IMG/VR virus record: IMGVR_UViG_3300020473_002122
Coordinates: 1-30,850 of that record
Length of the DNA stretch: 30,850 nucleotides
Strand: one strand, 5' to 3'
Source: a virus
Below the pieces are notes generated by a model. It was not told where the DNA came from. It did no database searches and was given only the letters and a program-made list of their open reading frames with translations. Shown piece after piece: positions 12,410 to 30,850 of the stretch. The position numbers and the translations under genes are program-made. Within the stretch, counting starts at the first letter, position 1; every line of letters begins with the position of its first letter.

Positions 12410-14011
12410 ATGAAAGGTCATTATAAGGTCTGCATTCTTTCAGCTGGAAAGGGAATGCGGCTTGGAGCCTTAACTAAGACTTTTAACAAGGCTCTTCTTC
12501 CAATTAATCAAAAAGCAATTATTTCTCATATAATAGAGAAATTTCCAAAGAATATTGAATTTGTAATTGCTACTGGGTTTCAGGGAGAAAAGGTTGAAGA
12601 GTATCTTAGTCATGCTCACAGTGATAGAAAGATCTCTATAGTAAATGTAGAAAATTTTGACGGCCCAGGATCAGGCCCAGGCCTCTCCCTTCTGGCTTGT
12701 AGGGAATACCTTCAGTGTCCATTTGTTGTATATGCTTCTGACACGATGGTCCTTGAAGAGTCCATTCCTGAGCCTGATAAAAATTGGATGGGGGTTTCTA
12801 GTGAATTTGAAGATCCTGAAGATTTTTGCACTGTATTTGTTAAGAATGGTATGATAGATCGAATAGATGATAAAAAAGCAGTTGATAACGATTTAGCGTT
12901 TATTGGAATTTCTGGAATTAAAGATTTTAAAATATTCTGGGATTCTCTTGAGACAGACAGAAAGTTAATTAATAACGAGCATCAGATATCTAACGGTCTT
13001 CTATCCTTGATTGACATGAAGTGCTATCCAGAAAATTTTAATTGGCTTGATACCGGAACTTTAGAAAACTACACCCAGACAAGAAAGGAATATGAGTCAA
13101 ATAGCCTTACTGAGACTTTTAACTTTGATAAAATTAATGAATTTACTTATTTTGTCAATGAAAAGGTTATCAAGTATTTTGGAAATCCATCACATGTAAC
13201 CCTGAGAAAGAAAAGAGCTGAGGGTTTGGGAGACTTATGTCCCAAACTTGATCTAGTTACAAGCTGGTTTTTTTCTTATCATTACGCTCCAGGTGATGTA
13301 CTTTATGAAAATATTACGCCTAGAATGACTAGTGACTTCTTAGGCTGGCTTGGAAAAAACCTTTGGAAAAGATCAAAGTATGTTTCAAATAGTGAATTTT
13401 TAAAGGCCTGTAAGTCCTTCTATAGAGATAAGACTTACAGCAGGCTAGATTTATTTTATAAAAAAAATAAAAAGCATAGTGATAAAATACTTGTTAACGG
13501 AATGGAACTACCTGGAATTAAAGAGCTTCTTGAATCTATTCCGTGGGAAAGTCTATTCGACGGAATTCAATCTAATTTTCATGGTGATCTACATTTTGAC
13601 AATGCCATTGGTCTTCAAAATAGTGTCGGAAGGATTGTAGACTTTAAACTACTAGACTGGAGGCAGGACTTTGGAGGTCTTGTTGAATGTGGAGATATAT
13701 ACTATGATTTGGCAAAATTTTATGGAGGACTAACACTTCCATACAATTTAATTAAAAAGAATAAATTTTCATATTTTGAGAGTAGAAGTTCCGGAATTAG
13801 ATATGATTTTCAAACATCGAATAGTCTAAATGAGGCAAAAGAGATATTTGAGTGCTTTATTGAAAAATCAAAATACTCTCTTAAAAAAGTTAAAATTATT
13901 AGAGGTCTTATTTTTCTTAACATGTCGCCCCTTCACGAGGAACCCTTCGATAAAATGCTATATCACATGGCCAGATACTATCTTAATCAGGTATTAAATG
14001 AATCTAAGTAA
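12410..14011 (+). CDS. Bifunctional sugar nucleotidyltransferase-APH-type kinase
   Basis: 533 residues, two domains. Residues 1-~230 are an NTP_transferase (GT-A-like) domain: CILSAGKGMRLG (8-19), FNKALLPIN (25-33) for phosphate and substrate binding, ENFDGPGSGPGLSL (81-94), YASDTM (108-113) with the metal Asp, and NWLDTGT near 211. Residues ~250-533 form an aminoglycoside/choline-kinase-like domain with the catalytic loop HGDLHFDN (391-398) and LDWRQDFGG (415-423) as the metal-binding motif, then GDIYYDLAKF. The likely reaction is phosphorylation of a sugar or small alcohol followed by transfer to a nucleotide; LicA/LicC do this for choline as separate proteins. The substrate cannot be told. 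It is first in the array, behind a good promoter, and overlaps the next gene by 14 bases. Confidence 0.88.
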   Translation: MKGHYKVCILSAGKGMRLGALTKTFNKALLPINQKAIISHIIEKFPKNIEFVIATGFQGEKVEEYLSHAHSDRKISIVNVENFDGPGSGPGLSLLACREYLQCPFVVYASDTMVLEESIPEPDKNWMGVSSEFEDPEDFCTVFVKNGMIDRIDDKKAVDNDLAFIGISGIKDFKIFWDSLETDRKLINNEHQISNGLLSLIDMKCYPENFNWLDTGTLENYTQTRKEYESNSLTETFNFDKINEFTYFVNEKVIKYFGNPSHVTLRKKRAEGLGDLCPKLDLVTSWFFSYHYAPGDVLYENITPRMTSDFLGWLGKNLWKRSKYVSNSEFLKACKSFYRDKTYSRLDLFYKKNKKHSDKILVNGMELPGIKELLESIPWESLFDGIQSNFHGDLHFDNAIGLQNSVGRIVDFKLLDWRQDFGGLVECGDIYYDLAKFYGGLTLPYNLIKKNKFSYFESRSSGIRYDFQTSNSLNEAKEIFECFIEKSKYSLKKVKIIRGLIFLNMSPLHEEPFDKMLYHMARYYLNQVLNESK

Positions 14012-15020
14012 GTCTAAAAAATATCCAAACTTTTATTTTGGACCAATGAGTCTAAATATTGTAGATGCCATAATTGAAATATCAAATGACGAAGGAATTA
14101 ATTTAGGCTTTATTCCCTCTAGAAGGCAAATTGAATGCAAAGAGCTAGGTGGGGGCTATGTAAACAGATGGACCACTGAGGATTTTTCTAAGTACGTTAG
14201 AGGTCGATGCGAAAAAATAACTCTAGAAAGAGACCACTCAGGACCTCACCAGGGCTCATTAAAAGATAGCGGAGAAAGATCAGTAATTGTGGATTGTAAT
14301 TCCGGGTTTGATGTAATTCATATCGATCCATGGAAGGCATACACGACTATTGCAACAGCTGCTTATTTTACTCACACCCTAATGGAGACTTGCCTATCCT
14401 CTAATCCAGATATTTTATTTGAAATAGGGACAGAAGAGGCTATTAGAAAATATACGCCCGTAGAGCTCGAAATATTTTTAAAAATGCTTCAAAACTATAA
14501 TGTTGATTTTTCTAAAATCATCTATTGTGTAGTTCAATCTGGTACAAGCATTAAGGGTTTAAGGAATACTGGAAGTTTTAATCTTATAAATTCTAAAAAA
14601 ATGTGTGAAATCTCTAGAAGCTTTGGTCTAGTGCCAAAGGAGCACAATTCCGACTATTTGTCAACCGAAGAAATAAAAAAGAGAATTTTAGCCGGAGTTG
14701 AATCATTCAACATAGCACCAGAGCTAGGAGTTCTTGAATCGGATACGATATTAAGCATAACAGATAATGATAAGCTTTCTACCACCAGAGATGAATTTAT
14801 TGATATGTGTGTAAAGTCTAAAAAGTGGAAAAAATGGATCGATAAAGGTTCTGAAATAGATAGAGAAAAGCTTGCTAGAATATCAGGTCATTATATCTTT
14901 TCATCTGATGAGTTTTTACAAATTAGAGATAGAATTTTAGAAACTGTAGATTTAGATAACGTAGTAAAGAACAAAGTTAAAAAAAGAGTAATGGAGATAG
15001 CTTGTTTAATAAAATCATAG
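13998..15020 (+). CDS. KbaZ/GatZ-like TIM-barrel protein (tagatose-bisphosphate aldolase non-catalytic subunit type)
   Basis: 340 residues. The pattern GFIPSRRQIE (37-46), GGYVNRWTTEDF (52-63), ERDHSGPHQG (77-86) and GFDVIHIDPWK (103-113) parallels the class II tagatose-bisphosphate aldolase accessory family (KbaZ/GatZ), in which GGDHLGPN and KIHLD stand at the same places. In Enterobacteriaceae these partner a separate catalytic subunit (KbaY/GatY) and are longer, about 420 residues. No such partner is in this window. Here, between a kinase/nucleotidyltransferase and a HAD phosphatase, it may make or cleave a sugar phosphate on its own. The start overlaps the previous gene by 14 bases. Family placement is fairly firm; the reaction is unknown. 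Confidence 0.75.
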   Translation: MNLSKSKKYPNFYFGPMSLNIVDAIIEISNDEGINLGFIPSRRQIECKELGGGYVNRWTTEDFSKYVRGRCEKITLERDHSGPHQGSLKDSGERSVIVDCNSGFDVIHIDPWKAYTTIATAAYFTHTLMETCLSSNPDILFEIGTEEAIRKYTPVELEIFLKMLQNYNVDFSKIIYCVVQSGTSIKGLRNTGSFNLINSKKMCEISRSFGLVPKEHNSDYLSTEEIKKRILAGVESFNIAPELGVLESDTILSITDNDKLSTTRDEFIDMCVKSKKWKKWIDKGSEIDREKLARISGHYIFSSDEFLQIRDRILETVDLDNVVKNKVKKRVMEIACLIKS

Positions 15021-15373
15021 CATTTGACCTAGATGATGTTATTTGCAAAAGAGATGTTGAGGGAAACAATATAGAAAAATACCTAACATGTGAGCCCATT
15101 CTAGAAATGATCAATATTGTCAATGAGTGCTATGATTCTGGTAATAAAATTATAATTTATACTGCCAGAGGTATGAGTGTATTTAACAAGGATGTAGATC
15201 TAGTCTATGAAAACCTCTATGAGCTTACATACAACCATCTTAAAGAATGGGGTGTAAAGTTTCATGAGCTTGTTATGGGAAAAATTCACTACGACATTCT
15301 TATAGATGACAAGGCTTTAAGTTCTTTTAGAGTTAGATCGATCAAAGATATTGACAATCATTTTAAAAAATAA
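15002..15373 (+). CDS. Small HAD-superfamily phosphatase
   Basis: 123 residues, starting at TTG 15002 with GGAG 14993-14996 upstream, and overlapping the previous gene by 19 bases. HAD motif I is DLDDVI (9-14), with the second Asp intact. Motif II is YTARGM (53-58), and the acidic motif IV is DILIDDKA (98-105). There is no room for a large cap domain, so it is a minimal HAD of the type found in capsule and lipopolysaccharide loci, likely acting on a phosphorylated sugar or sugar intermediate. With the two genes before it, it could complete a kinase, aldolase or isomerase, phosphatase and nucleotidyl transfer route. It ends the first sub-operon; a promoter follows in the gap. Confidence 0.85.
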   Translation: MFNKIIAFDLDDVICKRDVEGNNIEKYLTCEPILEMINIVNECYDSGNKIIIYTARGMSVFNKDVDLVYENLYELTYNHLKEWGVKFHELVMGKIHYDILIDDKALSSFRVRSIKDIDNHFKK

Positions 15374-15374
15374 A

Positions 15375-15404: not shown

Positions 15405-15464
15405 AAAGAAGAGGTCTAATTAATCAGCTTCTTCTACTATAGATTATATTAATTAAATAAAATA

Positions 15465-15502: not shown

Positions 15503-17431
15503 ATGATATCATTTAATAATGATCTTTTTTCTGCTAAAGAAGAAATAGAGATCCCATCAGATTGTGAAATAGTTTTTGTTTCAGATATGTTCACATCAGA
15601 CTATATGGGTGGAGCTGAGATGACTACAGATTCACTTATTGATAGTTCACCCCTGTCTGTATTTAGAATTCACTCTAAGGATGTAGATCTTTCTGTTCTT
15701 GAAAAAGGTGTAAAGAAATACTGGATATTTGGAAATTTTTCTCAATTAGATATGAATCTAATACCAAGCATTGTTTCAAATATGAGATATTCTATACTGG
15801 AGTATGACTATAAATACTGCAGATATAGATCACCTGAAAAGCATCTATTCTCAGAAAATTCTCCATGTGACTGCCATAATCAAATTCATGGAAAGATTGT
15901 TTCTGCATTTTTTCATGGAGCAAAATCTCTCTGGTGGATGTCTGAAAAACAGATGGAAAAATATCACAATGTCTTTCCTTTCTTAAGAGAAAATCAGAAT
16001 ACTGTTCTATCTTCAGTTTTTAATGAGGGATTTTTTGGATTTATAAAAGAGCTTAAGAAAAAATATGAGAATCAAGAAAGAAAGGGCTGGGTAGTCTTAG
16101 GTTCTACTTCTTGGGTAAAGGGTGCTCAAGATGCCGAAGACTGGTGTAAGAAAAATAATAAAGAATATGAAGTAGTCTGGAATGTTCCATACCAAGAAGT
16201 CTTAAACAAACTAGCTAGCTCAGAAGGTTTTGTGTACCTTCCTAAAGGGTCGGATACATGCCCTAGAATGGTTATAGAGGCAAAGCTTCTTGGGTGTAAG
16301 CTTGAAATAAACGAGTATGTTCAACATAAAGATGAGATTTGGTTTGATACAGAGGATATGTTTGATACGGAAGCATATCTCTATGCTGCAAGGGGTAGAT
16401 TTTGGAATGGAATAAAGCACAATATGGGATTTAATCCAACAGTTAGTGGGTATACAACAACAAAAGATTGCCTATCTCAAAACTATCCCTTTGAACAGTC
16501 TATTACGTCACTAATAGGATTCTGTGATCAAGTTGTTGTTGTCGATGGCGGATCAACCGATGGAACATGGGAAAGGCTGGTTGAATTAGCAAAGAGTCAT
16601 GAAAGTCTATTAGTCCATCGAGAAGAAAGAGACTGGAGCAGTAATAGATCTGCTGTTTTTGACGGTCAGCAAAAGGCACTCGCTAGGTCACTATGCACGT
16701 CAGACTTTTGCTGGCAGCAAGATGTCGACGAAGTGGTTCATGAGAATGACTATGATAAAATTAAAAATTTAGTTCATCAACTACCCAAGGGCATCGAGCT
16801 AGTTGCACTTCCAGTTATTGAGTATTGGGGAGGTCCTGAGAAAGTTAGAATGGATATTAATCCCTGGAAGTGGAGGCTTTCTAGAAACTTACCGCACATC
16901 ACACATGGAATTCCTGCCAGCCTAAGAAGATTTGATGACAATGGTGAAATGTACTCTGCACCAGGTAGCGATGGCTGTGACTATGTTAGAAGTGATACAT
17001 TTGTCCCAATTCAATTTGTCTCTTTTTATACAGCAGATATTGATCAATTAAGAAAAGATGCAATCAATAATCCACTATCTTTGGAAAAATATCAAGACTG
17101 GTTTGGTAAAATAGCAGACAGGCTGCCATCAATTCATCACTATTCATGGTTTGATATCGAAAGAAAGATAAAGACATATTCCGGATTTTGGTCTAGACAT
17201 TGGCAAAGCCTCTATAACATAGAGCAGAAAGATACTTCGGAAAATAATATGTTTTTTGATAAGCCCTGGTCAGAAATCAGCGATAAAGATATATCAGATT
17301 TAGCATCAAAGCTTAAAGAGAAAATGGGCGGTTGGATTTTTCATTCCAAAGTTGACTTTTCTAATCCCACGCCCCATATAAAACTAGAAATAGATCACCC
17401 AGAAATTATAAAAGAATGGATTAAAAAATGA
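15503..17431 (+). CDS. Two-domain glycosyltransferase: GT4-like then GT2
   Basis: 642 residues. Residues ~20-300 resemble a GT-B (GT4-like) glycosyltransferase: FVSDMFTSDYMGGAEM, a VVLGSTSWVKG strand (197-207) and FVYLPKGSDTCPRMVIEAK (243-261), where the family's donor-binding Glu segment lies. Residues ~312-560 are a GT2 (GT-A) domain: PTVSGYTTTKDCL, VVVDGGSTDGT (345-355), HREERDWSSNRS (372-383) and QQDVDEVVHE (405-414) as the DxD motif. The last ~80 residues are unassigned. The protein probably adds two sugars in sequence, although one half could be structural. Start ATG 15503 has GGAG six bases upstream. The stop overlaps the next start as ATGA. Confidence 0.87.
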   Translation: MISFNNDLFSAKEEIEIPSDCEIVFVSDMFTSDYMGGAEMTTDSLIDSSPLSVFRIHSKDVDLSVLEKGVKKYWIFGNFSQLDMNLIPSIVSNMRYSILEYDYKYCRYRSPEKHLFSENSPCDCHNQIHGKIVSAFFHGAKSLWWMSEKQMEKYHNVFPFLRENQNTVLSSVFNEGFFGFIKELKKKYENQERKGWVVLGSTSWVKGAQDAEDWCKKNNKEYEVVWNVPYQEVLNKLASSEGFVYLPKGSDTCPRMVIEAKLLGCKLEINEYVQHKDEIWFDTEDMFDTEAYLYAARGRFWNGIKHNMGFNPTVSGYTTTKDCLSQNYPFEQSITSLIGFCDQVVVVDGGSTDGTWERLVELAKSHESLLVHREERDWSSNRSAVFDGQQKALARSLCTSDFCWQQDVDEVVHENDYDKIKNLVHQLPKGIELVALPVIEYWGGPEKVRMDINPWKWRLSRNLPHITHGIPASLRRFDDNGEMYSAPGSDGCDYVRSDTFVPIQFVSFYTADIDQLRKDAINNPLSLEKYQDWFGKIADRLPSIHHYSWFDIERKIKTYSGFWSRHWQSLYNIEQKDTSENNMFFDKPWSEISDKDISDLASKLKEKMGGWIFHSKVDFSNPTPHIKLEIDHPEIIKEWIKK

Positions 17432-18132
17432 AAGTAGTTTTTATATCACCGTGTTTTAATGCATCTAGAAATCTTAAAAACTTAATAGACTCTGTCAGAT
17501 CACAAGATGATAATAGATGGTCCCATATTTTTATTGATGACATGTCTGTAGACGACACAGCTGAAGAATACTCTAAAGTTGTCCAAGATGACAAAAGATT
17601 CTCAATTATAAAAAATACTGAAAAGAAATATGCACTTAGAAATATAGTAGAAGTTGCAAGAAAGTTTGAAAATGACAAAGATGTGATAATTGCTGTTATT
17701 GATGGAGATGATCAGCTGTGTAACAATAAGGCTGTTACTCTTCTAATAGAAGAATATGAAAATGGAAATGATGTTGTATGGACAGGGCACAGGTGGGATG
17801 TTAATGGTATAAATATATCTAGAGACATGCCTAACAAGGTAGATCCGTATGGGTGGCCCTGGTGTACTTCTCACCTAAGGACGTTTAGATCTACGCTTTT
17901 ATCAAAAGTATCAGATAGAAACTTTAAAAATCATCAGGGAGAATGGTTTCAAAGAGGCTATGATCAAGCTTTAATGCTTCCACTCTTAAAGCTGACAAAT
18001 AAAAGAAAGTATATTGATGAGATATGCTATCTCTATAATATAAAGTCTGTTTCAGTAAACGATAGAGATTGGGCAGAAATGAATCAGCTTTCTACAATAA
18101 ATCTTGTTAGAGCAAGAGGCTTCTTGAGTTGA
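17428..18132 (+). CDS. GT2-family glycosyltransferase
   Basis: 234 residues, a compact GT-A domain. It begins VVFISPCFNASRNL, followed by SVRSQDDNRWSHIFIDD and MSVDDT, the usual nucleotide-binding strand and loop. IAVIDGDDQL near residue 93 gives the metal-binding DxD. The acceptor half has WTGHRWDVNG and GYDQALMLPLL. No membrane segment follows, so it is a soluble transferase. It is joined to both neighbours by overlaps: ATGA with the gene before, TTGA with the one after. It lies in the central run of five transferase genes, so it probably adds one residue of the same oligosaccharide. Donor and acceptor cannot be read from the sequence. Confidence 0.9.
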   Translation: MKVVFISPCFNASRNLKNLIDSVRSQDDNRWSHIFIDDMSVDDTAEEYSKVVQDDKRFSIIKNTEKKYALRNIVEVARKFENDKDVIIAVIDGDDQLCNNKAVTLLIEEYENGNDVVWTGHRWDVNGINISRDMPNKVDPYGWPWCTSHLRTFRSTLLSKVSDRNFKNHQGEWFQRGYDQALMLPLLKLTNKRKYIDEICYLYNIKSVSVNDRDWAEMNQLSTINLVRARGFLS

Positions 18133-19037
18133 AAATATTTTTTGACAACGTTAACTTTAATTCAACAAGTGGCCCAAATTCATTTGCCACAAGGCTTTCT
18201 TCTGAGCTACTAAAAAGAGATCATGAAGTATTTAATCAAGTCTCAATGGACACCATTCCAGATGTTCAGTTATCATTTATTATGTCGCAAAAAAAAGTCG
18301 CACCAATGATTCAAAGATTGGACGGTATATACTTTAACACTGATCAGGATTTTAAATCGCTAAATAAGCCAATCTTAGAAACATATGAGAATTGTGAGGC
18401 TGTAGTCTTTCAGACAGATTTTAATAAAAGGCTATCTGAGCATTACTTTGGGAATCACTGGAATTCCCACGTTATAAGAAACGGAACTGATATTGACTTA
18501 ATAACAGATATCAAGCCCAACCAGAATGATCTTCTTAATTCATTTGAAGGTGTGTGGTGCTGTGCATCATCCTGGAGACCTCACAAAAGATTGTCGGAGA
18601 ATATTAGATATTTCCTTGAAACAGCCCCAGATACACACTGTCTTGTTGTCCTTGGTTCTAATCCTGATTTTACTATAAAGCACCCTAGAGTTCTCTATGG
18701 GGGCCAGTTAGCCTGGAAAGATCTTATCTCTATATACAAGAGATCAGAATATTTTATACACCTTGCATGGCTTGATCATTGTCCTAATGTTGTGGTCGAT
18801 GCCCGTGCTGCAGGATGTAAGATCATATGTTCCTCATCTGGCGGAACAAAAGAAATTGCAGGACCAGAAGCAACACTAGTAATAGAAGATGATTGGGACT
18901 TTTCTCCAGTTAAGCTTTATAGTCCACCAAGGATGGATTTTTCTAAAACATCTATTAATACTTACAATGAGAATATTTCAATCACCAGAGCAGCAGATGA
19001 ATATCTTGACGCCTTTAGCTCGGTTTTAAGTAAATGA
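18129..19037 (+). CDS. GT4-family glycosyltransferase
   Basis: 302 residues. The start is TTG 18129, overlapping the previous stop as TTGA; no better start is nearby. The N-terminal domain has STSGPNSFATRLSSELLKR, the usual GT-B opening with an acceptor-side Gly loop. The C-terminal half has CCASSWRPHKRLSENI, then YGGQLAWKDLISIYKRSEYF and LAWLDHCPNVVVDARAAGC, which corresponds to the family's PN-hhhE-AxAxG donor site but with Asp where Glu is usual. SSGGTKEIAG follows as expected. It is probably an active transferase of unknown donor. It is part of the overlapping run and ends in ATGA with the next gene. Confidence 0.87.
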   Translation: MKIFFDNVNFNSTSGPNSFATRLSSELLKRDHEVFNQVSMDTIPDVQLSFIMSQKKVAPMIQRLDGIYFNTDQDFKSLNKPILETYENCEAVVFQTDFNKRLSEHYFGNHWNSHVIRNGTDIDLITDIKPNQNDLLNSFEGVWCCASSWRPHKRLSENIRYFLETAPDTHCLVVLGSNPDFTIKHPRVLYGGQLAWKDLISIYKRSEYFIHLAWLDHCPNVVVDARAAGCKIICSSSGGTKEIAGPEATLVIEDDWDFSPVKLYSPPRMDFSKTSINTYNENISITRAADEYLDAFSSVLSK

Positions 19038-20011
19038 AAATATACTATCAAAAGGCAAATGAGAGCTGGATAGTAGACAGAATAGGCGAAGAGTTTAAAG
19101 ACAACAGCATTCATACCGTAGAGTTTGGCTTTCATGGAATTAATAACTTTAATTTTGATGCCATCTGGCTTGGAGCATCATATGCATGGAGAATGATTAC
19201 AAGAGATATTGATGAGCTTAGGCTTATTTTAGAAAATACACCGACCTTTTGCACAATTCACCATATTGTTCCCTGGAAGTGGAATGAGGATAAGCATAGA
19301 GAGTTCATGCTTAGAGATCAATTTGTTGATATGTATCACACTTATACAAAAGAAACAGCTTCAATAATAAAAGAAATTTCTAATAAACCAGTTATAGTAA
19401 TTCCTCACTGGGTAAATTCTAAAATTTGGCACCCTCTAGATAAGAAGAAGTGTAGAGAAGAGCTTGGATTGGGAGAAGATAAATTTATTATAGGATCATT
19501 TCAAAGAGACACAGAAGGATCGGATTTAAAATCACCCAAGCTAGAGAAGGGTCCTGATATTTTTATAGAAATGTGTAAAGAATTCAATATGAACAAGTGG
19601 AATGTTGAAGTTCTTCTTGGTGGAAATCGTCGGCAATTTGTCATAAATGAGCTAAATAGGCTTGGAATTTCTTATAAGTATTTTGAAAATTCTCCCACAG
19701 AGAGTGTAAATAAAATGTACTCTGCCTGTGATCTATACGCAGTTTCTTCTAGGTGTGAAGGCGGTCCCCAGGCAATATTTGAAGCATCTGCAACTAAAAC
19801 AAGCATTATATCAACAGACTGCGGACAATCTAGAGATATCCTCGACAGCAGGTGTATCTACCAGCTAGAATCAATAAGCTTAGGCCAGCATATGAATTAT
19901 GAAGTTCCTGATAATTCTTGTATAGACATTAATTACAAAAGCGCTATGAAGTATGATATTACCAGGCATATTAAAAATTTTGACAAAGCCATTAGTGAGA
20001 TTGTTAAGTGA
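19034..20011 (+). CDS. GT4-family glycosyltransferase, first of a tandem pair
   Basis: 325 residues. Motifs include ESWIVDRIGEEF, TIHHIVPWKWNEDKHREF, RDQFVDMYHTYT, IIGSFQRDTEGSDLKSPK with LEKGPDIFIEM, LLGGNRRQFVINEL, MYSACDLYAVSSRCEGGPQ and AIFEASATKT. The last block is the GT4 donor site with its paired Glu residues intact. The next gene carries the same motifs in the same order (DRIG, CTIHH, ARDQFVD, GSFQRDTEG, LEKGPD, RRQYVINRL, MYSACDLYVVGSRHEGGPQ), so the two arose by duplication. The start is ATG with an ATGA overlap; the end is GTGA with the next gene. They may add similar sugars in succession or make a repeat. Confidence 0.9.
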   Translation: MKIYYQKANESWIVDRIGEEFKDNSIHTVEFGFHGINNFNFDAIWLGASYAWRMITRDIDELRLILENTPTFCTIHHIVPWKWNEDKHREFMLRDQFVDMYHTYTKETASIIKEISNKPVIVIPHWVNSKIWHPLDKKKCREELGLGEDKFIIGSFQRDTEGSDLKSPKLEKGPDIFIEMCKEFNMNKWNVEVLLGGNRRQFVINELNRLGISYKYFENSPTESVNKMYSACDLYAVSSRCEGGPQAIFEASATKTSIISTDCGQSRDILDSRCIYQLESISLGQHMNYEVPDNSCIDINYKSAMKYDITRHIKNFDKAISEIVK

Positions 20012-23376: not shown

Positions 23377-23998
23377 TCTAGACGGCGTTCTTGTTGATGC
23401 ATGTGAATGGCATCAACGAGCACTAAACGAAGCATTGATGGAGGTTTGTAATTATTCAATACCTCCAGATGAACATGAGTCAATATTTAATGGAATTCCA
23501 ACAAGAGTAAAGCTTAAAAAGCTTTCTAAAATGGGAAAAATCTCTCAAGATTGTCATGAAGAAGTATATCAAACAAAGCAGAAAAAGACAAAAGCAATAA
23601 TTCAGGAAAATTCAAAAATTCAACCGGAAAAAATTAAATTAATTAAAGATCTTAAGTCTCGAAATTTAAAAGTCTGCTGCTTTACAAATAGTATTAGAGA
23701 GACTGCTGAGCTAATGCTATCTACTTGTGGCATTCTTGATCTTTTAGATACAGTAGTTACAAATCAGGATGTTAGGCTTCCCAAGCCAAGCCCAGAGGGA
23801 TATCTTAAAATACTATCTCTTTATAAAGTATCTCCGAAAGATGCTATAATAATAGAAGATTCTCCAAAAGGGATAGAGGCTGCAATTTTATCTGGATGCA
23901 GAGTTATAGGTGTTGGTTCTGCCCTGGATGTAAACTTAGATCTTTTTAAATCAATTTTTGAGGAATGTGAGGACAGAGAAGATGAAAATAGTAAATAA
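23348..23998 (+). CDS. HAD-superfamily hydrolase, beta-phosphoglucomutase-like
   Basis: 216 residues, the usual size for HAD subfamily IA. Motif I is VIFDLDGVLVD with nucleophile and acid/base Asp, followed by the helical cap (WHQRALNEALMEV to QTKQKKTKAI). Motif II is CCFTNS, motif III the Lys in LPKPSPEGY, and motif IV IIEDSPKGIEAA. This order is that of the beta-phosphoglucomutase and phosphoglycolate phosphatase group. It probably dephosphorylates or isomerises a sugar phosphate for the adjacent enzymes. It overlaps the preceding diesterase by 29 bases and the following cupin by 17 bases, so the three are tightly coupled. Confidence 0.88.
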   Translation: MKNLKLVIFDLDGVLVDACEWHQRALNEALMEVCNYSIPPDEHESIFNGIPTRVKLKKLSKMGKISQDCHEEVYQTKQKKTKAIIQENSKIQPEKIKLIKDLKSRNLKVCCFTNSIRETAELMLSTCGILDLLDTVVTNQDVRLPKPSPEGYLKILSLYKVSPKDAIIIEDSPKGIEAAILSGCRVIGVGSALDVNLDLFKSIFEECEDREDENSK

Positions 23999-24350
23999 AC
24001 CATGGGGAAGAGAAGAGTGGATTGAGCTAAATGATAAATACTGCTATAAGAGACTTTACATAAACAAGGGGCACAGAACAAGCTTTCAATATCATGTTAA
24101 AAAATTAGAGACAATCTATATTATCGAAGGTGTCGCTGAAGCGTGGCTTGAAAATAATGATGGAGAAATAGAAAAGAAAATAATGAAAAGTGGAGAGTTT
24201 TTTACAAATCTACCAATGAGAAAGCATAGAATAGTCGCCATGTCAAACTTAATTCTACAAGAAGTCTCTACACCAGAAGTTGATGACGTTGTTAGGATTG
24301 ATGATGACACCCACAGGCCGGACGGAAGAATTATTCAGGAGCATGATTAA
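23982..24350 (+). CDS. Single-domain cupin, mannose-6-phosphate isomerase type II-like
   Basis: 122 residues from ATG 23982, supported by GAGGA at 23969-23973; a TTG 24 bases upstream in frame has no such site. The opening NKPWGREEWIEL, then YCYKRLYINKGHRTSFQYH and ETIYIIEGVAEAWLE match the cupin domain found at the C-terminus of GDP-mannose pyrophosphorylase/PMI type II proteins and in stand-alone sugar isomerases. The metal-binding pattern H-x5-H, E, and a later His (LPMRKHRIVA) is present. The likely role is isomerising a sugar phosphate, although stand-alone members of this fold vary. It sits between a HAD phosphatase and a glycosyltransferase. Confidence 0.83.
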   Translation: MKIVNKPWGREEWIELNDKYCYKRLYINKGHRTSFQYHVKKLETIYIIEGVAEAWLENNDGEIEKKIMKSGEFFTNLPMRKHRIVAMSNLILQEVSTPEVDDVVRIDDDTHRPDGRIIQEHD

Positions 24351-24352
24351 GA

Positions 24353-25183
24353 ATGAAAAGATCTTGCACCCTCCTTCTTCAAAGAAATCTTCCAGATGTA
24401 ACAGAAAAGTTTGCAGAAAACTTACTGAGACATAATAGTGATGTTACAGATCTCTATGTTGTTGAAAGCGGATCAGATGATGAAAATCTTACCGGCTATG
24501 AAACATTTCACGCCAACTGGGAAGATGCAAAAATAAATGGGCTAAGGACCGGAAGAGGCTTTAATTTTGGCCTTAAAACCCTTATTGAGAAAGATCTAGA
24601 TTATGAATTCATTATGATGGCCACAGGTGACACCCAACTTCCAGAGGAACCTGTGGTTAAAATACTAATAGATGAAATGGATAAATTTCCAAAGATGGGA
24701 ATTATTTCTCCCATTGTCTGGAGTTGGAATGAAAGAATTACTAACTTTGTCGGAAAAAAGATCACAAAAGCTATGTATGTACCCATTCCACACATATGCT
24801 GGATGTTTAGAAGAGATGCAATTAATGATATAATATCTGAAAAGCCGCTAAGTGTGTATGATGACTTTCTATATGATGGAACAAACTTTAGATGCTATGG
24901 TGTGGATACTGAGCTTATGATGAGAATGTACATGAATGACTGGATGTTCTGTGTTACTTCAGCAACATCTCAAAAAGAAGATTATGATCTAACTGATAAG
25001 AACTATAAAAAAATGAAAACTAATTCCCACAGTGAGCACAGGCGTCTAATGTGGGATGAGGGCCTGGCCTGGTTTGAGAGAAAATATGGCTTTAAAGATA
25101 AACATGGTCTAAACTCACTTTTACGTAGAGAGTATATTTCATTTTTTGATAGAAATCCTGATATGTCTAATTTTGTTTATTAG
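24353..25183 (+). CDS. GT2-family glycosyltransferase, rhamnosyltransferase-like
   Basis: 276 residues. The N-terminal strand and loop are CTLLLQRNLPDVTEKF and LYVVESGSDDE, where the loop replaces the usual VDNxSxD. FIMMATGDTQLPEE gives an Asp at the DxD position but in the order GDTQ, so the metal motif is unusual. MGIISPIV, HICWMFRRDA and GVDTELMMRMYM are the usual acceptor-side elements of this GT2 group. The product closes the second sub-operon; a 41-base gap with its own AT-rich box follows. It is probably active, but the altered DxD leaves some doubt. The transferred sugar is unknown. Confidence 0.8.
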   Translation: MKRSCTLLLQRNLPDVTEKFAENLLRHNSDVTDLYVVESGSDDENLTGYETFHANWEDAKINGLRTGRGFNFGLKTLIEKDLDYEFIMMATGDTQLPEEPVVKILIDEMDKFPKMGIISPIVWSWNERITNFVGKKITKAMYVPIPHICWMFRRDAINDIISEKPLSVYDDFLYDGTNFRCYGVDTELMMRMYMNDWMFCVTSATSQKEDYDLTDKNYKKMKTNSHSEHRRLMWDEGLAWFERKYGFKDKHGLNSLLRREYISFFDRNPDMSNFVY

Positions 25184-25224: not shown

Positions 25225-26985
25225 GTGATAATTTTAGGACTTCCCTCATACCATCATAGTGGCTGGGGACTTATTAAAGATGGAAAAATAATTAGAGCAG
25301 TTCAGGAAGAGCGGCTCAATAGAATTAAAGACTATCCCTATCGAATAAATCTTAAAGAGAATCCCATGTCTTTAGGGATAGACTATTTATTTAAAAACTT
25401 AGATATTAATCTATCTGACTGTGATGCAGCCACAATTCCTCAGATACCAGTTTCTCTTTCTGAAAAAGACTTTACAATGGTCGAGTTTAAAGATGTCGAC
25501 CTTGTAATAAAATCTAATTTAATTCCGGGATACAATGAACTACTATCTCTCCTTAAGTCAAAAGGATTTAATGGAAAAATAGTTTCTGTAAATCACCAGC
25601 TATCCCATGCAGCTTATGCCTACTACTATTCAGGATATCAAAATGCTGATATTTTATCCTATGATGGTGCCGGCTGTGGAGATCCTCCAGAAGTCGTTGT
25701 TGGGTTTAATGTTGAAAATCACGAATTTAGAAAGGTATTTTCATATAGGGTCCCACACAGCCTGGGACATGCGTACTCCAATACGACGTCAAGAATATTT
25801 GGTGTTGACAAATTTATGTATAGCGAAGAGGCAGAAAGATTTATAACAAATGAAGCCCATGGAAAAGAGGGAAAAACAATGGGCTTGGCACCTTATGGAA
25901 CATTTAATCCAGATATGCAAATGCTTATACATGATCCAAAAAAGAAAATGTATGTTTCAACATATCAGAGCACCAGCAAGGTTCCATATTCAGGAATAGA
26001 ACCATATTCTAGTAGGCTCGGAGAAAGACAGTCAGGAGTCAAAAGAAGAGAAAAAAATAAACCTTGGGATTTTAACGACCCATCAGATAAGTTCTATGCT
26101 GATCTTGCAGCAACTGCACAAAGATCAATTGAGGAAGCAGGACAGTTTTATGTAAAAAAGCTAAAAGATATAACTAATTGTGAAAATCTCTGCCTAACGG
26201 GAGGAGTTGCACTGAATAGCTGTCTAAATGGAAAAATTAGAAGATCTGGTGTCTACAAATCAGTATTTGCTCCTCCGGCTTGCCATGACGGAGGTCACGG
26301 CATCGGTGCACCGCTATATTATTTTAATCAAAAATCTTCCAATAAATCAGAAATTTCTAGAATTAATAATGATTTTTTAGGATATCCCTACACGCTAGAT
26401 GATTGTAAAAATGCTGCAAACAGCCTGGGTGTAAAGGTTGAAGAAATTTCAGATATCGACTCTCTAGGCGAAGATATTGCCAAGTCAATAATTGATCAGA
26501 AGATAGTTGCTATTTTTAGAGGGTCTTCTGAGTTCGGACCGAGAGCTCTAGGCCATAGAAGCATAATGGTTGATCCAAGAACAGCAGCGATGAAAGATAT
26601 ATTAAATGAAAGAGTTAAATTTAGAGAGGCATATAGACCATTTGCTCCAATAGTCTTAAAGGATCACGCTCTTGACTATTTTGATTTTGATGATAGTGAC
26701 TTTATGCTGTTTGTTGCCAAGGGAACAGATCGAGCGATAAAAGAAGTTCCGGCTGTAATTCATGTTGACGGAACAGCAAGAATGCAAACTGTCACAGAAG
26801 GAAATGAGCCGTTTTATAGCACATTAAATCACTTCTATAAGATGACTGGTACACCAGTTTTACTAAATACAAGCTTTAATGTTGCAGGCGAGCCGATTGT
26901 TGAAACACCAGAGGATGCAATTAGATGTTTTCTAGGTACGTCAATTGATATTTTATATTTGGATAATCTTAAAATTGTTAAGTAG
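25225..26985 (+). CDS. O-carbamoyltransferase, NodU/CmcH family
   Basis: 586 residues, start GTG 25225 with GGAG seven bases upstream. The N-terminal half is the Kae1-like catalytic domain: YHHSGWGLIKDG, VQEERLNRIK, HQLSHAA (124-130) with the metal-binding histidines, SYDGAG (145-150), KEGKTMGLAPYG, LTGGVALNS (324-332) and HDGGHGIGA (354-362). The C-terminal YrdC-related region has EFGPRALGHRS (436-446) and REAYRPFAP (467-475), then TGTPVLLNTSFNVAGEPIVE. The family transfers the carbamoyl group of carbamoyl phosphate, through carbamoyl-adenylate, to a hydroxyl of a sugar or antibiotic. All expected motifs are here, so it is likely active. Its acceptor is probably a sugar of this island. The following gene starts 8 bases later. 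Confidence 0.95.
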   Translation: MIILGLPSYHHSGWGLIKDGKIIRAVQEERLNRIKDYPYRINLKENPMSLGIDYLFKNLDINLSDCDAATIPQIPVSLSEKDFTMVEFKDVDLVIKSNLIPGYNELLSLLKSKGFNGKIVSVNHQLSHAAYAYYYSGYQNADILSYDGAGCGDPPEVVVGFNVENHEFRKVFSYRVPHSLGHAYSNTTSRIFGVDKFMYSEEAERFITNEAHGKEGKTMGLAPYGTFNPDMQMLIHDPKKKMYVSTYQSTSKVPYSGIEPYSSRLGERQSGVKRREKNKPWDFNDPSDKFYADLAATAQRSIEEAGQFYVKKLKDITNCENLCLTGGVALNSCLNGKIRRSGVYKSVFAPPACHDGGHGIGAPLYYFNQKSSNKSEISRINNDFLGYPYTLDDCKNAANSLGVKVEEISDIDSLGEDIAKSIIDQKIVAIFRGSSEFGPRALGHRSIMVDPRTAAMKDILNERVKFREAYRPFAPIVLKDHALDYFDFDDSDFMLFVAKGTDRAIKEVPAVIHVDGTARMQTVTEGNEPFYSTLNHFYKMTGTPVLLNTSFNVAGEPIVETPEDAIRCFLGTSIDILYLDNLKIVK

Positions 26986-26993: not shown

Positions 26994-27704
26994 ATGAATA
27001 TTTTAATACCCATGGCAGGAGAGGGCAGCAGATTTAAAAAAGAAGGATATACTTTTCCAAAGCCGTTAATTGATGTTAATGGAAAGCCAATGATACAGTG
27101 CGTTGTTGAAAATTTAGATTTTGATGCACAATATATTTTCCTTGTTAGAAAGGAACATTTAGAAAAATATAATATTGAATCTGTACTAAAGATTGTAACA
27201 AATGGGAGATCTACGATAGTTCCTGTTGATGGGCTTACCGAGGGTGCTGCATGCACAGCGTTGCTAGCAAAAGAGCATATAGATAGCGATAGTGAACTAT
27301 TAATAGCAAATTCTGATCAAATTATTGAATATTCAAAAGAAAACTTTAACACTATAAGAAGGTTTACCAAGTTTAATTCTGCTGTTTTTACATTTAGAGC
27401 TGTTCATCCAAAATGGAGCTTTGTCAAGGTTAACTCAAGAGGGGTTGCAACAGAAGTTGCAGAAAAAAATCCAATATCTGACATAGCAACTTGCGGGGTT
27501 TATTACTATAGGTCCGGAAGCGACTTTGTTAAATATGCCACCAATATGATTGATAAGGATATTAGAGTCAATAATGAATTTTATATCTGCCCAGTGTATA
27601 ATGAGCTTATTGCAGATAGAAAAACGTTAATTCCATTCTTTGTTGATAAAATGCATGGACTCGGAACCCCGGAAGATCTTAAGAAATATTTATCAAAACT
27701 GTAG
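26994..27704 (+). CDS. NDP-sugar pyrophosphorylase (NTP_transferase family)
   Basis: 236 residues, a single GT-A-like nucleotidyltransferase domain. ILIPMAGEGSRF (3-14) binds the nucleotide, FPKPLIDVNGKPMI (22-35) the phosphates and sugar, and IANSDQIIE (~102-110) gives the metal Asp. CGVYYYRSG and NNEFYICPVYNELI are the usual sugar-binding part, and the end HGLGTPEDLKKYL is also typical. No hexapeptide-repeat domain follows. It is followed at once (2 bases) by an APH-type kinase, so the pair reproduces as separate genes what the 12410 gene holds in one chain. Nucleotide and sugar are unknown. Confidence 0.9.
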   Translation: MNILIPMAGEGSRFKKEGYTFPKPLIDVNGKPMIQCVVENLDFDAQYIFLVRKEHLEKYNIESVLKIVTNGRSTIVPVDGLTEGAACTALLAKEHIDSDSELLIANSDQIIEYSKENFNTIRRFTKFNSAVFTFRAVHPKWSFVKVNSRGVATEVAEKNPISDIATCGVYYYRSGSDFVKYATNMIDKDIRVNNEFYICPVYNELIADRKTLIPFFVDKMHGLGTPEDLKKYLSKL

Positions 27705-27706: not shown

Positions 27707-28558
27707 ATGATAAGAATAAAAGGGCATTCAAATTTTAATCTAGCTGTATTAGAAGAATGTAGAGAAACCAAGCCTCTAATTAGAAAATCATCTAATAGCC
27801 CGCCTGACTCCACAAGACTCATCAGACAGTGTAATAAGCAGATTGTATTTGTAGAAAAAAATATCAAAGGTATAACATCACCTCAGGTATTTTCTCAGTC
27901 ATTTAATCAAAATGGCTTTTATTTTGACATGGAGTATCTTCCTCATAGTGAGTTTTTAAATTTTTTAATTGAAAAACCTATCTTAGAAATTAAAAAATCT
28001 ATTGACACCATTCTTGATTTTGTTGATCAGTGTGTTAATGAATCTAGGGAGGAATTAATTAGTTCTGATATTTTTCTAAAAAAGTCTAAAAGCATTAAGA
28101 AAAATCTTAAAAATAATAAATTTATTAATAACAAGAATTATAAAAAAATGTGCTTAGCCCTAGATGACTCGATAGATCGGTGTCTAGGTAGCTCAATTCC
28201 CACAGGATACTGTCACGGAGATTTGACATTGTCAAATATACTGTATTCCAATGGTGAGATTGTCTTTATTGATTTTTTAGATAGCTTTATAGAGACTCCT
28301 TTGCAAGATATTGTTAAGCTTAGACAGGACACTAAGCACTTTTGGTCTCTTCGACTCTTGAGTGGAAATCACGACACTACAAAATTAAAAATAGTCCTTA
28401 GGTATATTGATAATCAAATACAATATAGATTTTCATGTTATAATTTTTATAAAGCACTATATGCTTCATTTCAGTCAATTAGTCTTATTAGAGTTGCACA
28501 ATATGCAAAATCTCATAGCACTATAGATTATATTTTCACATGTCTAGAGAACCCTTAA
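27707..28558 (+). CDS. APH/choline-kinase-like phosphotransferase
   Basis: 283 residues. The catalytic loop HGDLTLSN (170-177) and the metal motif IDFLDS (188-193), followed by LQDIVKLRQD, are those of the aminoglycoside and choline kinase group. FYFDMEYLPHSEFLNFL is the hinge expected between the lobes. The N-terminal lobe is short, and a Lys for ATP is less clear (RKSSN near 26). It should phosphorylate a sugar or small alcohol that the neighbouring nucleotidyltransferase then activates. The final TAA overlaps the preferred start of the next gene (TAATG). It is Lys/Asn-rich, like the genes around it. Confidence 0.85.
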   Translation: MIRIKGHSNFNLAVLEECRETKPLIRKSSNSPPDSTRLIRQCNKQIVFVEKNIKGITSPQVFSQSFNQNGFYFDMEYLPHSEFLNFLIEKPILEIKKSIDTILDFVDQCVNESREELISSDIFLKKSKSIKKNLKNNKFINNKNYKKMCLALDDSIDRCLGSSIPTGYCHGDLTLSNILYSNGEIVFIDFLDSFIETPLQDIVKLRQDTKHFWSLRLLSGNHDTTKLKIVLRYIDNQIQYRFSCYNFYKALYASFQSISLIRVAQYAKSHSTIDYIFTCLENP

Positions 28559-29619
28559 TGGTAAGCTTAATAGTCCCAGCAGCAGGAAAGTCTTCAAGAT
28601 TTCCTGGCATGAAGCCAAAATGGCTACTAACACACCCAAAAGGAAACTTAATGGTTGTTGAGTCTCTTATGGGATTAGATTTAAAAAATGTTAAAAAGAT
28701 ATATCTTACAGTCCTAGATGAGCACATTAGAGAATACGCATCGCTTGATGGGATAAAGCAGGCATTTTTAGATGCTGGTCTTTCTGATATGTTGGAGATA
28801 GTTTCTCTAGAAAGAGAGACAAAAAATCAGCCAGAAACTGTCTATGAGACAATAAAAAGAGCAAATATTTCTGGACCTATTTTTATAAAAGATGTAGATA
28901 ATTTCTTTTCTTGCAAGGTTAGCTCTAAAAATTCTGTTTCAATACAAGATCTTCACTCAATGGACCTGGTTCACGCTTCAAATAAAAGCTTTATTGAGTC
29001 AAATAAGCACGGTCATGTAATTAATATTGTTGAAAAGCAAATTATAAGCTCAATGTTTTGTGCAGGAGGGTATTCTTTTGCAAGTGGTGACGATTTTAAA
29101 AGATATTTTCTAAAGCTGTCTAGTCATAAAAATTTATATATTTCTCATATTATTTTTGACATGTGTCTCGATGGTCACATCTTCACAGCAAGCGAAGTGT
29201 CTAAGTATATTGATTGGGGAACCTTAATTGATTGGAATAATTTTAAATCTACGTACTCTACTCTCTTTGTAGATATTGATGGTGTTCTTGTTAATAATTC
29301 ATCTGCTTATTTTAATCCGACCTGGGGAAGTACAGAAGGAATTTCGGAAAATATTAATACAATAAATTCGCTATATGAGTCAGGAAGATCTAAAATAATA
29401 TTGACAACTTCTAGAAAGACATCTTCAAAAAAGAAAACAGAAGCACAGCTTAAGCGAGTTGGATTAAAATATCATCAAATAATTTATGATCTATTTCACT
29501 GTAAGAGAATTATAATAAATGACTATGCTCCTACAAATCCATACAAGAGCTGTGAGTCAATTAATATTCCAAGAAATAGTAATACCCTGAAAGATCTAAT
29601 TCAAGACAGTGTTGATTAA
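28558..29619 (+). CDS. Bifunctional nucleotidyltransferase-HAD phosphatase
   Basis: 353 residues from ATG 28558, which overlaps the previous stop and has AGAGAA 7 bases upstream. An in-frame ATG at 28540 has no binding site. Residues 1-~225 are a nucleotidyltransferase domain: LIVPAAGKSSRF (4-15), MKPKWLLTHPKGNLMV (18-33) and IFIKDVDNFF (~109-118) for the metal. Residues ~233-353 are a minimal HAD: TLFVDIDGVLV (235-245), ILTTSRK for motif II and INDYAPTNPY (320-329) for motif IV. It joins a sugar-activating and a phosphatase domain in one chain. The sugar is unknown. It is followed without a gap by a GT-B-like gene. Confidence 0.85.
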   Translation: MVSLIVPAAGKSSRFPGMKPKWLLTHPKGNLMVVESLMGLDLKNVKKIYLTVLDEHIREYASLDGIKQAFLDAGLSDMLEIVSLERETKNQPETVYETIKRANISGPIFIKDVDNFFSCKVSSKNSVSIQDLHSMDLVHASNKSFIESNKHGHVINIVEKQIISSMFCAGGYSFASGDDFKRYFLKLSSHKNLYISHIIFDMCLDGHIFTASEVSKYIDWGTLIDWNNFKSTYSTLFVDIDGVLVNNSSAYFNPTWGSTEGISENINTINSLYESGRSKIILTTSRKTSSKKKTEAQLKRVGLKYHQIIYDLFHCKRIIINDYAPTNPYKSCESINIPRNSNTLKDLIQDSVD

Positions 29620-30603
29620 ATGAAGATTAGCACTTATATTCCTAGATATAGTAAGAATTTTTTTGAACATGAAAATCCTTTTGATATATTCGTAGGTGAG
29701 ATTCTTATTCAATTTCTACAAATGGGTCATGAAATTGTTCAATACGATGAGTCAGCTGACGTTAATTTAATCTTTAATTATTGTGGAATAATCAGAGATG
29801 ATTCACTAAATGTCTTAATTGTTGATGACTCTTTTGTGCCAATTATAAGCATATCGGATCAATTTCACATAATAAGAGAAAAGTTTGAAAAAGTTGATTT
29901 AGTAATTTACAGATCAGAATATATTCAAAGAATCATTCATAAAAATCTTGGTAAAAAGAAGAATGAATTTATAATACCCGGGTGTGTAAATCTTGAAGCT
30001 GCCAAGCTAGCGTCTGTTATATTTCAGAAACCCAATGGGGGAGAATATGTTAGTGACGAAGACGACGTCTGGGTGTATGCAGGACATCTATATCCTGAAA
30101 ACGGCCTTAGAGATTCCATAGAGTATTTTTTAAAAAACTCTTCAGAGAATTCTATTTTAATTGTATTTGGAGATCCAGACTTTGCTAGGTGGGAAATATT
30201 TTCTGAAATGGCAGAATTTGATCGCGAAGAAATGGATAAAAAAGTCATCCAGCTTGCAGGACCTTCTGAGCTAGACATTTTAAGTGCAATATTGAAGTGT
30301 GATAAATTTATTAATTTAGGTCAGCTTATATATGATCTTAGCTTATTTTATACAGCAGCACTGTTTAATAGGCATGTTATTTGTAGAAATGAAGCATTTA
30401 AACAAAGTATAATTAAAAATAATTGCACAATACTGGACAGAGATTTAAACATTCTTTTAAAGAATGAAACACCTAAGTGCCCTAACAGTGAAATAAAAGC
30501 AAATTTAAGTCACTTTCTTATTGAGCGTGCTGCTAAAGACTATATTAGTGCAATTACTTCTATAATGATCCACAAGGAAAGCAATGACAAAAAGCCACAG
30601 TAA
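29620..30603 (+). CDS. Divergent GT4-like (GT-B) glycosyltransferase
   Basis: 327 residues, starting directly at the previous stop (TAA then ATG). The first ~140 residues look like the GT-B N-terminal domain (EILIQFLQMGHEIVQYDES, VDLVIYRSEYIQRIIHKNL). WVYAGHLYPENGLRDSIEYF and SILIVFGDPDFARWEIF form the start of the donor domain. The part that should hold the donor-site EGxPxxxxE block reads INLGQLIYDLSLFYTAALF, without the paired Glu, so activity is doubtful. It may be a diverged transferase or a structural partner of another. It overlaps the next gene by 20 bases. Confidence 0.7.
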   Translation: MKISTYIPRYSKNFFEHENPFDIFVGEILIQFLQMGHEIVQYDESADVNLIFNYCGIIRDDSLNVLIVDDSFVPIISISDQFHIIREKFEKVDLVIYRSEYIQRIIHKNLGKKKNEFIIPGCVNLEAAKLASVIFQKPNGGEYVSDEDDVWVYAGHLYPENGLRDSIEYFLKNSSENSILIVFGDPDFARWEIFSEMAEFDREEMDKKVIQLAGPSELDILSAILKCDKFINLGQLIYDLSLFYTAALFNRHVICRNEAFKQSIIKNNCTILDRDLNILLKNETPKCPNSEIKANLSHFLIERAAKDYISAITSIMIHKESNDKKPQ

Positions 30604-30850
30604 ACAATTTTTTGATTTTTTAGATGCTCTAGATGCTGCCGACGTTAGATATGTTATTATTAGAGGCTTTGGGAGACTTCCAAAAACACCTGATACGGAT
30701 ATTGATCTTTTATATCATATCGATGATCACGATAAGTATATTTCACTTGCTAGAGAAAATCTTGAGGAATTTGTAAATGCAAATGGATCTGAATGGCAAA
30801 GCTTCGGATCAGGTGAGTGGTGTGAAATGCTATATTCACCTTGTAAGACT
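30584..30850 (+). CDS. Nucleotidyltransferase-fold protein, 3' end outside the window
   Basis: The start is ATG 30584 with AAGGA at 30574-30578, reading in frame to the right edge (89 codons seen). It begins MTKSHSKQFFDFLDALDAAD, then RYVIIRGFGRLPKTPDTDID with LLYH. The pattern RGF...P...DxDxDLL is that of pol-beta-type (MNT/minimal) nucleotidyltransferases, in which the Asp pair binds metal. Similar domains occur in surface-glycan loci and other contexts. It overlaps the preceding glycosyltransferase-like gene by 20 bases. With only a third or less of the protein visible, the substrate cannot be inferred. Confidence 0.65.
   Translation, partial: MTKSHSKQFFDFLDALDAADVRYVIIRGFGRLPKTPDTDIDLLYHIDDHDKYISLARENLEEFVNANGSEWQSFGSGEWCEMLYSPCKT

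Follow-up and report, generated by a model that had tools for sequence, protein, structure and literature searches.

The window, by which we mean the whole 30,850 bases of the record analysed here, carries from position 12410 to its last base about 20 glycan genes, all on the plus strand, with a coding fraction of 0.999 and with most neighbours overlapping or lying no more than 10 bases apart. The unbroken, mostly overlapping plus-strand array described in an earlier, sequence-only reading is thereby confirmed, and it is very nearly certain that the region is a glycan-making island. The '18-kb' extent given in that reading describes a real array, but 18.4 kb is only the minimum length of the island, since the end of the record falls within it. 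To the left, on the same strand, lie a PIN-PhoH protein that serves as the left landmark (4308..5630; Pfam PhoH, 1.4e-52, and PIN_4), two small H-type-lectin-like proteins (5662..6227), the first with a weak Pfam H_lectin match (5e-4), and a 2027-amino-acid repetitive fibre-like protein (6238..12321), which was identified from its position and from homology in two relatives (L005 and L006) and matches no Pfam family above the cut-off. The lectin-like pair between PhoH and fibre is conserved in most relatives.

The island opens with g10 (12410..14011), an NTP-transferase (NTP_transferase, 1e-7) fused to an APH-type kinase (phrog_21938, C-terminal half), followed by g11 (13998..15020), a GatZ/KbaZ-like TIM barrel assigned by profile, by Pfam matches in relatives, by fold and by residues, and by g12 (15002..15373), a small HAD phosphatase (phrog_1238, 2.8e-26). 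Next comes g13 (15503..17431), a fusion of GT4-like and GT2 domains (PF00535, 8.4e-6, and an alignment of relatives) that we use as the anchor and left border. The glycosyltransferases that follow are g14 (GT2; 17428..18132; PF00535, 1.1e-16) and g15 (GT4; 18129..19037; PF00534, 1.8e-6), each present in the window and in every one of the six mapped relatives whose sequence extends into the island, and then g16 (19034..20011; PF00534, 3.8e-10), g17 (20008..20946; PF00534, 5.1e-10) and g19 (21980..22885; PF13439, 1.3e-5; phrog_2170, 1.7e-11), all of the GT4 type. Between the last two lies g18 (20949..21995), an NAD-dependent epimerase/4,6-dehydratase-like SDR protein (PF01370, 2.6e-34).

Further to the right, g20 (22882..23376) is a half-length GDPD-like protein with HRG, ExD and HD motifs identified by eye; it has no Pfam match and belongs with phrog_34507 (3.7e-27), a family of unknown function. 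It is followed by g21 (23348..23998), a beta-phosphoglucomutase-like HAD (PF13419, 7.3e-31; TIGR02009, 1.6e-30, under the cut-off of that model), and g22 (23982..24350), a cupin of the mannose-6-phosphate isomerase C-terminal type (PF01050, 5.9e-7). The probable GT2-like transferase g23 (24353..25183) gives no family match itself, and its profile found nothing in the PDB; its bacterial relatives, at 36-37% identity, match PF00535 (best 4.5e-4) and adjoin KbaZ-like genes. The O-carbamoyltransferase g24 (25225..26985) has both the Carbam_trans_N (PF16861, 3.9e-63) and the Carbam_trans_C (PF02543, 6.9e-33) domains of the NodU/TobZ family and has homologues NovN, GdmN and TobZ in the PDB. A scan of the viral contigs for carbamoyltransferases with single-sequence patterns returned nothing, and PF16861 detects the enzyme in three relatives. 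The window closes with g25 (26994..27704), a sugar-phosphate nucleotidyltransferase (PF00483, 2.6e-8; phrog_3980, 1.7e-69) that is 82-85% identical in three relatives (L025, L053 and L061); g26 (27707..28558), an APH/choline-kinase-like kinase (PF01636, 1.1e-7) that found nothing in the PDB; g27 (28540..29619), a nucleotidyltransferase fused to a HAD (phrog_3980, 4.2e-16; phrog_1238, 1.2e-9); g28 (29620..30603), a probable GT4-like glycosyltransferase (TIGR04157, 6e-6, under its cut-off) weakly similar to the g15 genes of relatives; and g29 (30584..30850), the start of a protein that looks nucleotidyltransferase-like by eye and whose reading frame is still open where the record stops.

Most of the inventory drawn up from the letters thus stands: three NTP-transferase domains (g10, g25 and g27), two APH-type kinases (the C-terminal half of g10, and g26), three HAD domains (g12, g21 and the C-terminal third of g27), and a single epimerase, NodU/TobZ-type carbamoyltransferase, cupin and KbaZ-like barrel were all recovered. 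For the nine glycosyltransferase domains, HMM support was obtained for seven; the other two have weaker grounds, namely a low-confidence GT-B-like model for the N-terminal half of g13 and, for g23, the GT2 matches of its bacterial relatives only. The GDPD-like motif is present as claimed, but it is the sole basis for naming a protein of half length, and the 'phosphodiester-bearing' product that was built on this protein finds nothing else in its favour.

The anchor gene g13 is characteristic of viruses. It has relatives in 239 IMG/VR contigs and none among 50,697 annotated phage records, against which a megablast of the island also gave no match. In bacterial data, full-length g13 was found in two MAG contigs only, both with the same phage neighbours, and these contigs look like phage. 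The g13 profile matched nothing among PDB sequences, and its AlphaFold model (mean pLDDT 57.6, with an unusable C-terminal half) gave weak matches from the N-terminal, GT-B-like half only.

Around this anchor the borders are nearly constant. Of the 51 viral loci that have 9 kb or more of upstream DNA, 49 carry PhoH upstream of g13, and a same-strand exonuclease lies downstream in all 40 spanned contigs, at a distance of 1.8-31 kb (median 20 kb). Two islands are empty, the exonuclease lying 51-89 bp from g13. Where the sequence to the right of the exonuclease could be read, it holds two glycosyltransferases, then a sigma-like gene and baseplate genes; since the window record ends early, these relatives are the source for the right border. 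The fibre gene is not always adjacent to g13, so that the placement of the island 'directly after the fibre gene' is correct for the window but not for 12 relatives, in which g13 follows PhoH within about 400 bp. Pairs of g13 at 74-78% identity share anywhere from 12 of 12 to one or two island genes: the contents of the island switch between constant borders. The same slot and border genes, with other contents, occur in more than 200 viral sequences, which suggests that the phages make glycans of their own and exchange them. We read the stretch as the left portion of an exchangeable island for glycan biosynthesis that keeps a fixed position in a lineage of large tailed phages.

One module recurs within the changing contents. 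The g10-type kinase fusion adjoins a g11-type barrel in all 80 of the viral loci examined (365 were found), a cupin related to g22 lies near the pair in 63 of these 80, and in one relative (L178) a g12 relative, 79% identical, adjoins g11. The KbaZ-like assignment of g11 is upheld by a profile match to PDB entry 3txv (E 3.4e-10), by Pfam GatZ_KbaZ-like matches to its relatives and by a confident structural model (pLDDT 92.9) with the TIM-barrel fold of the family, whose closest structure is 3txv (TM 0.80), followed by 2fiq. D79, H80, H216 and E142/E146 are invariant in 27 sequences and correspond to the zinc-site residues named for GatZ/KbaZ (PMC11907403), with either E142 or E146 as the Glu ligand. 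We predict that g11 is a zinc-dependent ketose-phosphate C4-epimerase or aldolase. It shares with the GatZ/KbaZ C4-epimerases (PMC11907403) the fold, the DH and H zinc-site motifs and the invariant Glu, but is only about 15% identical to solved members and is partnered by the NTP-kinase fusion and the cupin rather than by catabolic genes. The NTP-kinase/KbaZ pair thus offers well-defined enzymes for the study of a rare-sugar pathway that phage isolates almost entirely lack.

By a simple hydropathy rule, none of 809 island-side ORFs encodes a protein with three or more transmembrane segments, compared with 4 of 16 ORFs in the E. coli rfb/wca control. Searches of 18 large contigs found no Wzx-type or Bac_transf family, although the controls were detected. 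A flippase, a polymerase and a phosphoglycosyl transferase are therefore missing, and the island lacks the phosphoglycosyl transferase, Wzx flippase and Wzy polymerase of a Wzx/Wzy-dependent O-antigen cluster. This favours a soluble, cytoplasmic acceptor.

Domain content and synteny support a phage-borne set that makes and assembles a bespoke glycan, probably a carbamoylated one. Unusual NDP-activated sugars would come from the KbaZ-like barrel together with the HAD phosphatases, the kinases and the nucleotidyltransferases; g13 and the GT4/GT2 enzymes would string them into an oligosaccharide, and the carbamoyltransferase would cap it. The sequence itself does not reveal the donors or the linkages. 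Since the island encodes nothing to flip, polymerise or ligate a glycan carried on a lipid, assembly would most likely take place in the cytoplasm, with a virion protein (fibre, baseplate or capsid) as the acceptor, and the particle would thereby gain a glycan coat that can change. That a variable carbamoylated glycan is made in the cytosol for such a putative acceptor is, in our estimation, as probable as it is improbable, and for the virion protein as the acceptor itself the chance is even or slightly below. In bacteria, one O-antigen locus can take the place of another between its flanking genes. More tentatively, these phages might likewise have glycan serotypes of their own, a phage-specific glycosyltransferase starting the chain on a virion protein and sugar-pathway cassettes being swapped between constant borders, to give a switchable, carbamoylated, rare-sugar coat.

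There is perhaps one chance in three that the target is instead the host envelope: working in the cytoplasm, the enzymes would build or decorate the host's lipid-linked precursors of O-antigen or capsule, which would leave through host Wzx/Wzy or ABC systems, and the changed surface would block superinfecting phages. Cyanophage and pelagimyophage clusters are normally interpreted in this way (PMC2984593, PMC7029224, PMC7824862), and the island genes do resemble O-antigen sugar pathways. Host flippases could carry a lipid-linked glycan outward after the phage had altered it, so the missing membrane proteins are compatible with an envelope product; the P-SSM2 clusters, too, lack transmembrane segments, and the usual interpretation of them is still as LPS genes. 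Against it stand the lack of any export enzyme or multi-spanning protein among the 809 island-side proteins, the lack of such export families in the 18 large contigs, and the near-constancy of g13 and both borders, which one would not usually see in an accessory trait. DNA is a frequent target of phage glycosyltransferases, and sugars placed on hydroxymethylated bases against restriction have been raised for the four core glycosyltransferases of moraphages (PMC12619734). However, the thymidylate-synthase family, which includes hydroxymethylases, occurs in only 4 of the 18 large, incomplete contigs, and at least nine glycosyltransferase domains with sugar pathways exceed known DNA-glycosylation sets, making DNA hypermodification improbable; Tet_JBP was not found in the contigs, where its control was silent too. 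Still less probable is a soluble, carbamoylated, aminoglycoside-like metabolite with no polymer-bound glycan. The carbamoyltransferase is nearest, among solved structures, to the antibiotic enzymes NovN, GdmN and TobZ, all island enzymes are soluble and a secondary-metabolite reading has been proposed for a cyanophage carbamoyltransferase cluster (PMC7824862), but members of the NodU-type family act on oligosaccharides too, and nine glycosyltransferase domains, variable sugar sets and a fixed structural-gene locus speak against it. Finally, a bacterial O-antigen locus misassembled onto phage sequence, or functionless stuffer DNA, is scarcely credible despite the bacterial-like gene types: the synteny search called for earlier found the same junction and gene order in many divergent, independently assembled contigs, which excludes misassembly, g13 is nearly absent from bacteria, and the reading frames are open and conserved at 47-70% identity.

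Glycan gene clusters in large marine phages have been known since P-SSM2; as a rule they are entered as LPS genes whose use is unknown. Like the window, P-SSM2, S-SSM7 and S-SM2 carry multi-gene glycan clusters, and in the second cluster of P-SSM2 genes of the carbamoyltransferase, HAD, cupin and epimerase types lie between phoH and tail-fibre genes. The P-SSM2 homologues of g24, g12 and g22 are 29-35% identical to those of the island; no similarity to the window glycosyltransferases and no homologue of g13, g10 or g11 was detected in P-SSM2, which belongs to a different phage family and has smaller clusters. With similar clusters in P-SSM2, S-SSM7 and pelagimyophages, and with the same locus in at least 239 uncultured viral contigs, the earlier description of such a set as 'uncommon' no longer holds. 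The host recognition cluster of pelagimyophages and cyanomyophages (PMC7029224) is likewise a large hypervariable region of tail-fibre and glycosyltransferase genes near structural modules, but it is dominated by GT8, whereas the window has GT4 and GT2 enzymes with activation enzymes, and its lineage, unlike that cluster, has a phage-specific anchor glycosyltransferase and constant borders. Nor does the carrier appear to be a cyano- or pelagimyophage: g13 is absent from annotated phages, and the six annotated phage records matched by a relative's baseplate protein include no T4-like cyanomyophage or pelagimyophage, the nearest being Microcystis phage Mel-JY01 and Flavobacterium phage immuto (31-34%). 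The moraphages, compared here through their published description, are aquatic jumbo phages that carry PhoH, gp6, four core glycosyltransferases and variable genomic islands yet to be characterised (PMC12619734); PhoH, gp6 and several glycosyltransferases are conserved in the window lineage, but other phages have them as well, and the moraphage paper describes no glycan island. With many glycan genes inside a phage genome and hypervariable content at a fixed place beside tail and structural genes, the locus is of the LPS/host-recognition cluster kind already known from P-SSM2 and pelagimyophages, and is new as a variant of it, in its constant borders, virus-specific anchor glycosyltransferase, exchangeable cassettes and NTP-kinase/KbaZ module. 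For such clusters, an exchangeable locus that keeps its borders, has an anchor enzyme specific to viruses and encodes no export machinery offers a testable alternative: glycosylation of the particle.

From position 12410 to the end of the window, which is the whole IMG/VR record of 30,850 bases, every gene lies on the plus strand (coding fraction 0.999) and, since the record ends within a further gene, the island is longer than its visible part. The domain list of the sequence-only reading is correct: HMM matches back most of it, including seven of the nine glycosyltransferase (GT) domains and the nucleotidyltransferases, kinases, HADs, epimerase, cupin and carbamoyltransferase, while the KbaZ-like call stands by profile and model. 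On this content and its conservation, the island almost certainly serves glycan production.

The synteny that the same reading had proposed to look for was found, the window's gene order recurring in other viral contigs. Among sixteen contigs fetched by a PhoH scan, L006 (77% at PhoH) keeps the order UvdE, OMP-like gene, PhoH, two lectin-like genes, fibre, g13 (the GT4-like/GT2 fusion at 15503-17431), g14 (GT2) and g15 (GT4), followed in the rest of the contig by g19, g20, g21, g25, g26, g27 and a g10-like gene. Five more divergent contigs carry PhoH and then the core trio g13-g14-g15 with differing genes behind, and five contigs cover the island end to end; it stops at an exonuclease, behind which come a pair of GT4-like genes, then a sigma-like gene and the baseplate hub and wedge. 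Misassembly of a bacterial locus onto phage DNA is ruled out by this retention of island order in divergent phage contigs; the island is part of a phage lineage. Only six annotated phage records match the wedge protein, among them Microcystis phage Mel-JY01 and Flavobacterium phage immuto (31-34%), and the lineage therefore lacks a close cultured member. A virus record derived from a single cell, marine virus AG-345-E15 (MH319741.1), holds a similar unannotated island with g26-, g27-, g22-, g10-, g11- and g24-like genes within about 25 kb.

Left of the island, the UvdE UV-damage endonuclease (1685-2608) is 91-97% conserved across the two nearest relatives. The aminoglycoside 3-N-acetyltransferase family gene between UvdE and the OMP-like gene (2616-3374; Antibiotic_NAT, E 9e-34) is missing from L005 and L006, the two closest relatives, and is therefore probably a recent insertion. 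The small protein at 3451-3978 carries a signal peptide and resembles a beta-barrel in sequence; it is 97% identical in L005 and 90% in L006, above the conservation of neighbouring PhoH, and is possibly a phage-made outer-membrane protein. Upstream of PhoH in relatives lies a YeaH (DUF444)-SpoVR-PrkA trio (L010:667-5155), a bacterial stress operon whose order is kept in phage.

A profile search detected relatives of g13 on 239 viral contigs, of which 80, with lengths of up to 322 kb, were fetched, and in none of 50,697 annotated phages. A search of 84,980 species genomes of bacteria and archaea gave only two full-length copies and one fragment. All three adjoin the same phage genes (PhoH and/or exonuclease), and their contigs are hence taken to be of phage origin and to have been binned into MAGs; the other forty bacterial matches cover the GT2 domain only, at about 30%. 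L128, L129 and L130, with g13 and these same neighbours in Halobacteriovorax, Methylococcaceae and Pelagibacter MAGs, look like phage contigs. Of the 51 viral loci that reach 9 kb or more upstream of g13, 49 contain PhoH in that stretch. The exonuclease is present in 42 of 50 records searched, and each of the other eight ends about 21 kb or less from g13; where its distance was measured, in 40 viral contigs, it follows on the same strand after 1.8 to 31 kb (median 20 kb). In two contigs it comes directly after g13, with gaps of 51 and 89 bp, and the island is empty. Where g13 is about 75% identical, the L055 and L059 islands have all genes in common and the pairs L107/L124, L073/L075 and L075/L085 only one or two; with the constant borders, this indicates a fixed slot whose contents are exchanged. 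Short or almost empty islands (L076, L080, L109, L074 and L106; 51-1,842 bp from g13 to exonuclease) offer natural controls for the needs of a minimal system.

The KbaZ-like g11 has no direct family match of its own, and a profile of its relatives, present in 365 viral contigs, matches solved GatZ/KbaZ structures (3.4e-10); these relatives also match Pfam GatZ_KbaZ-like (2.4e-14), and the AlphaFold model of g11 (mean pLDDT 92.9) best matches PDB 3txv (TM 0.80). GatZ and KbaZ are C4-epimerases with a predicted zinc-dependent retro-aldol route, Asp87, His88, Glu171 and His257 being named in GatZ (PMC11907403); the g11 counterparts D79-H80 and H216 do not vary among 27 phage sequences, nor does a glutamate. 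In all 80 viral contigs examined, the KbaZ-like gene has a g10-like NTP-transferase/APH fusion at most 1.2 kb away, and a cupin is also near in 63, usually just before the fusion. The g10-g11-g12 trio stands behind g27 in contig L178, not in front of g13, and so moves as a block. The predicted route would lead from a ketose phosphate through an epimerised product, dephosphorylation and re-phosphorylation to an NDP-sugar. Of 398 Pseudomonadota genomes, 6 hold strong bacterial relatives of g11; five of these relatives adjoin a g23-like GT2, mostly together with a KdsC-like HAD. Pseudomonadota loci L258 (653-3149) and L259-L262, where a longer KbaZ-like protein of about 390 aa adjoins the GT2, usually with the HAD and once with a cupin, may point to a bacterial version of the same pathway.

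By a Kyte-Doolittle rule applied to the 809 island-side proteins that are 100 aa or longer, 22 have one or two transmembrane segments, mostly borderline, and no protein reaches three; E. coli rfb/wca controls gave nine for RfbX and WzxC, six for WbbH and four for WcaJ. Wzx flippase and phosphoglycosyl transferase families were not found in 18 large contigs, control genomes being positive. Lacking membrane proteins, the islands would carry out sugar synthesis and transfer within the cytosol and could not alone export or polymerise a lipid-linked glycan. We favour a virion protein as acceptor, at close to an even chance: the island encodes soluble enzymes, its anchor is a near-constant enzyme specific to viruses, and it lies among structural genes. 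Modification of the host envelope, with export by host machinery, is the main rival and the usual published reading (PMC2984593, PMC7029224, PMC7824862); we consider it somewhat less probable. Glycosylation of the phage's own DNA is less likely, a thymidylate-synthase-family gene occurring in only 4 of the 18 large, incomplete contigs.

The island is of the same kind as the large glycan clusters described in 2010 in P-SSM2, S-SSM7 and S-SM2, one near phoH and their function left open (PMC3037559), the hypervariable host-recognition cluster with glycosyltransferases of pelagimyophages (PMC7029224), and the moraphages' set of four core glycosyltransferases with their variable islands, which are uncharacterised (PMC12619734); the P-SSM2 clusters are likewise without membrane proteins. 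Apparently new against these published descriptions are a virus-specific glycosyltransferase fusion that forms a constant border, the swapping of contents across many contigs while the borders stay fixed, the NTP-kinase/KbaZ pair, and the complete lack of membrane proteins.
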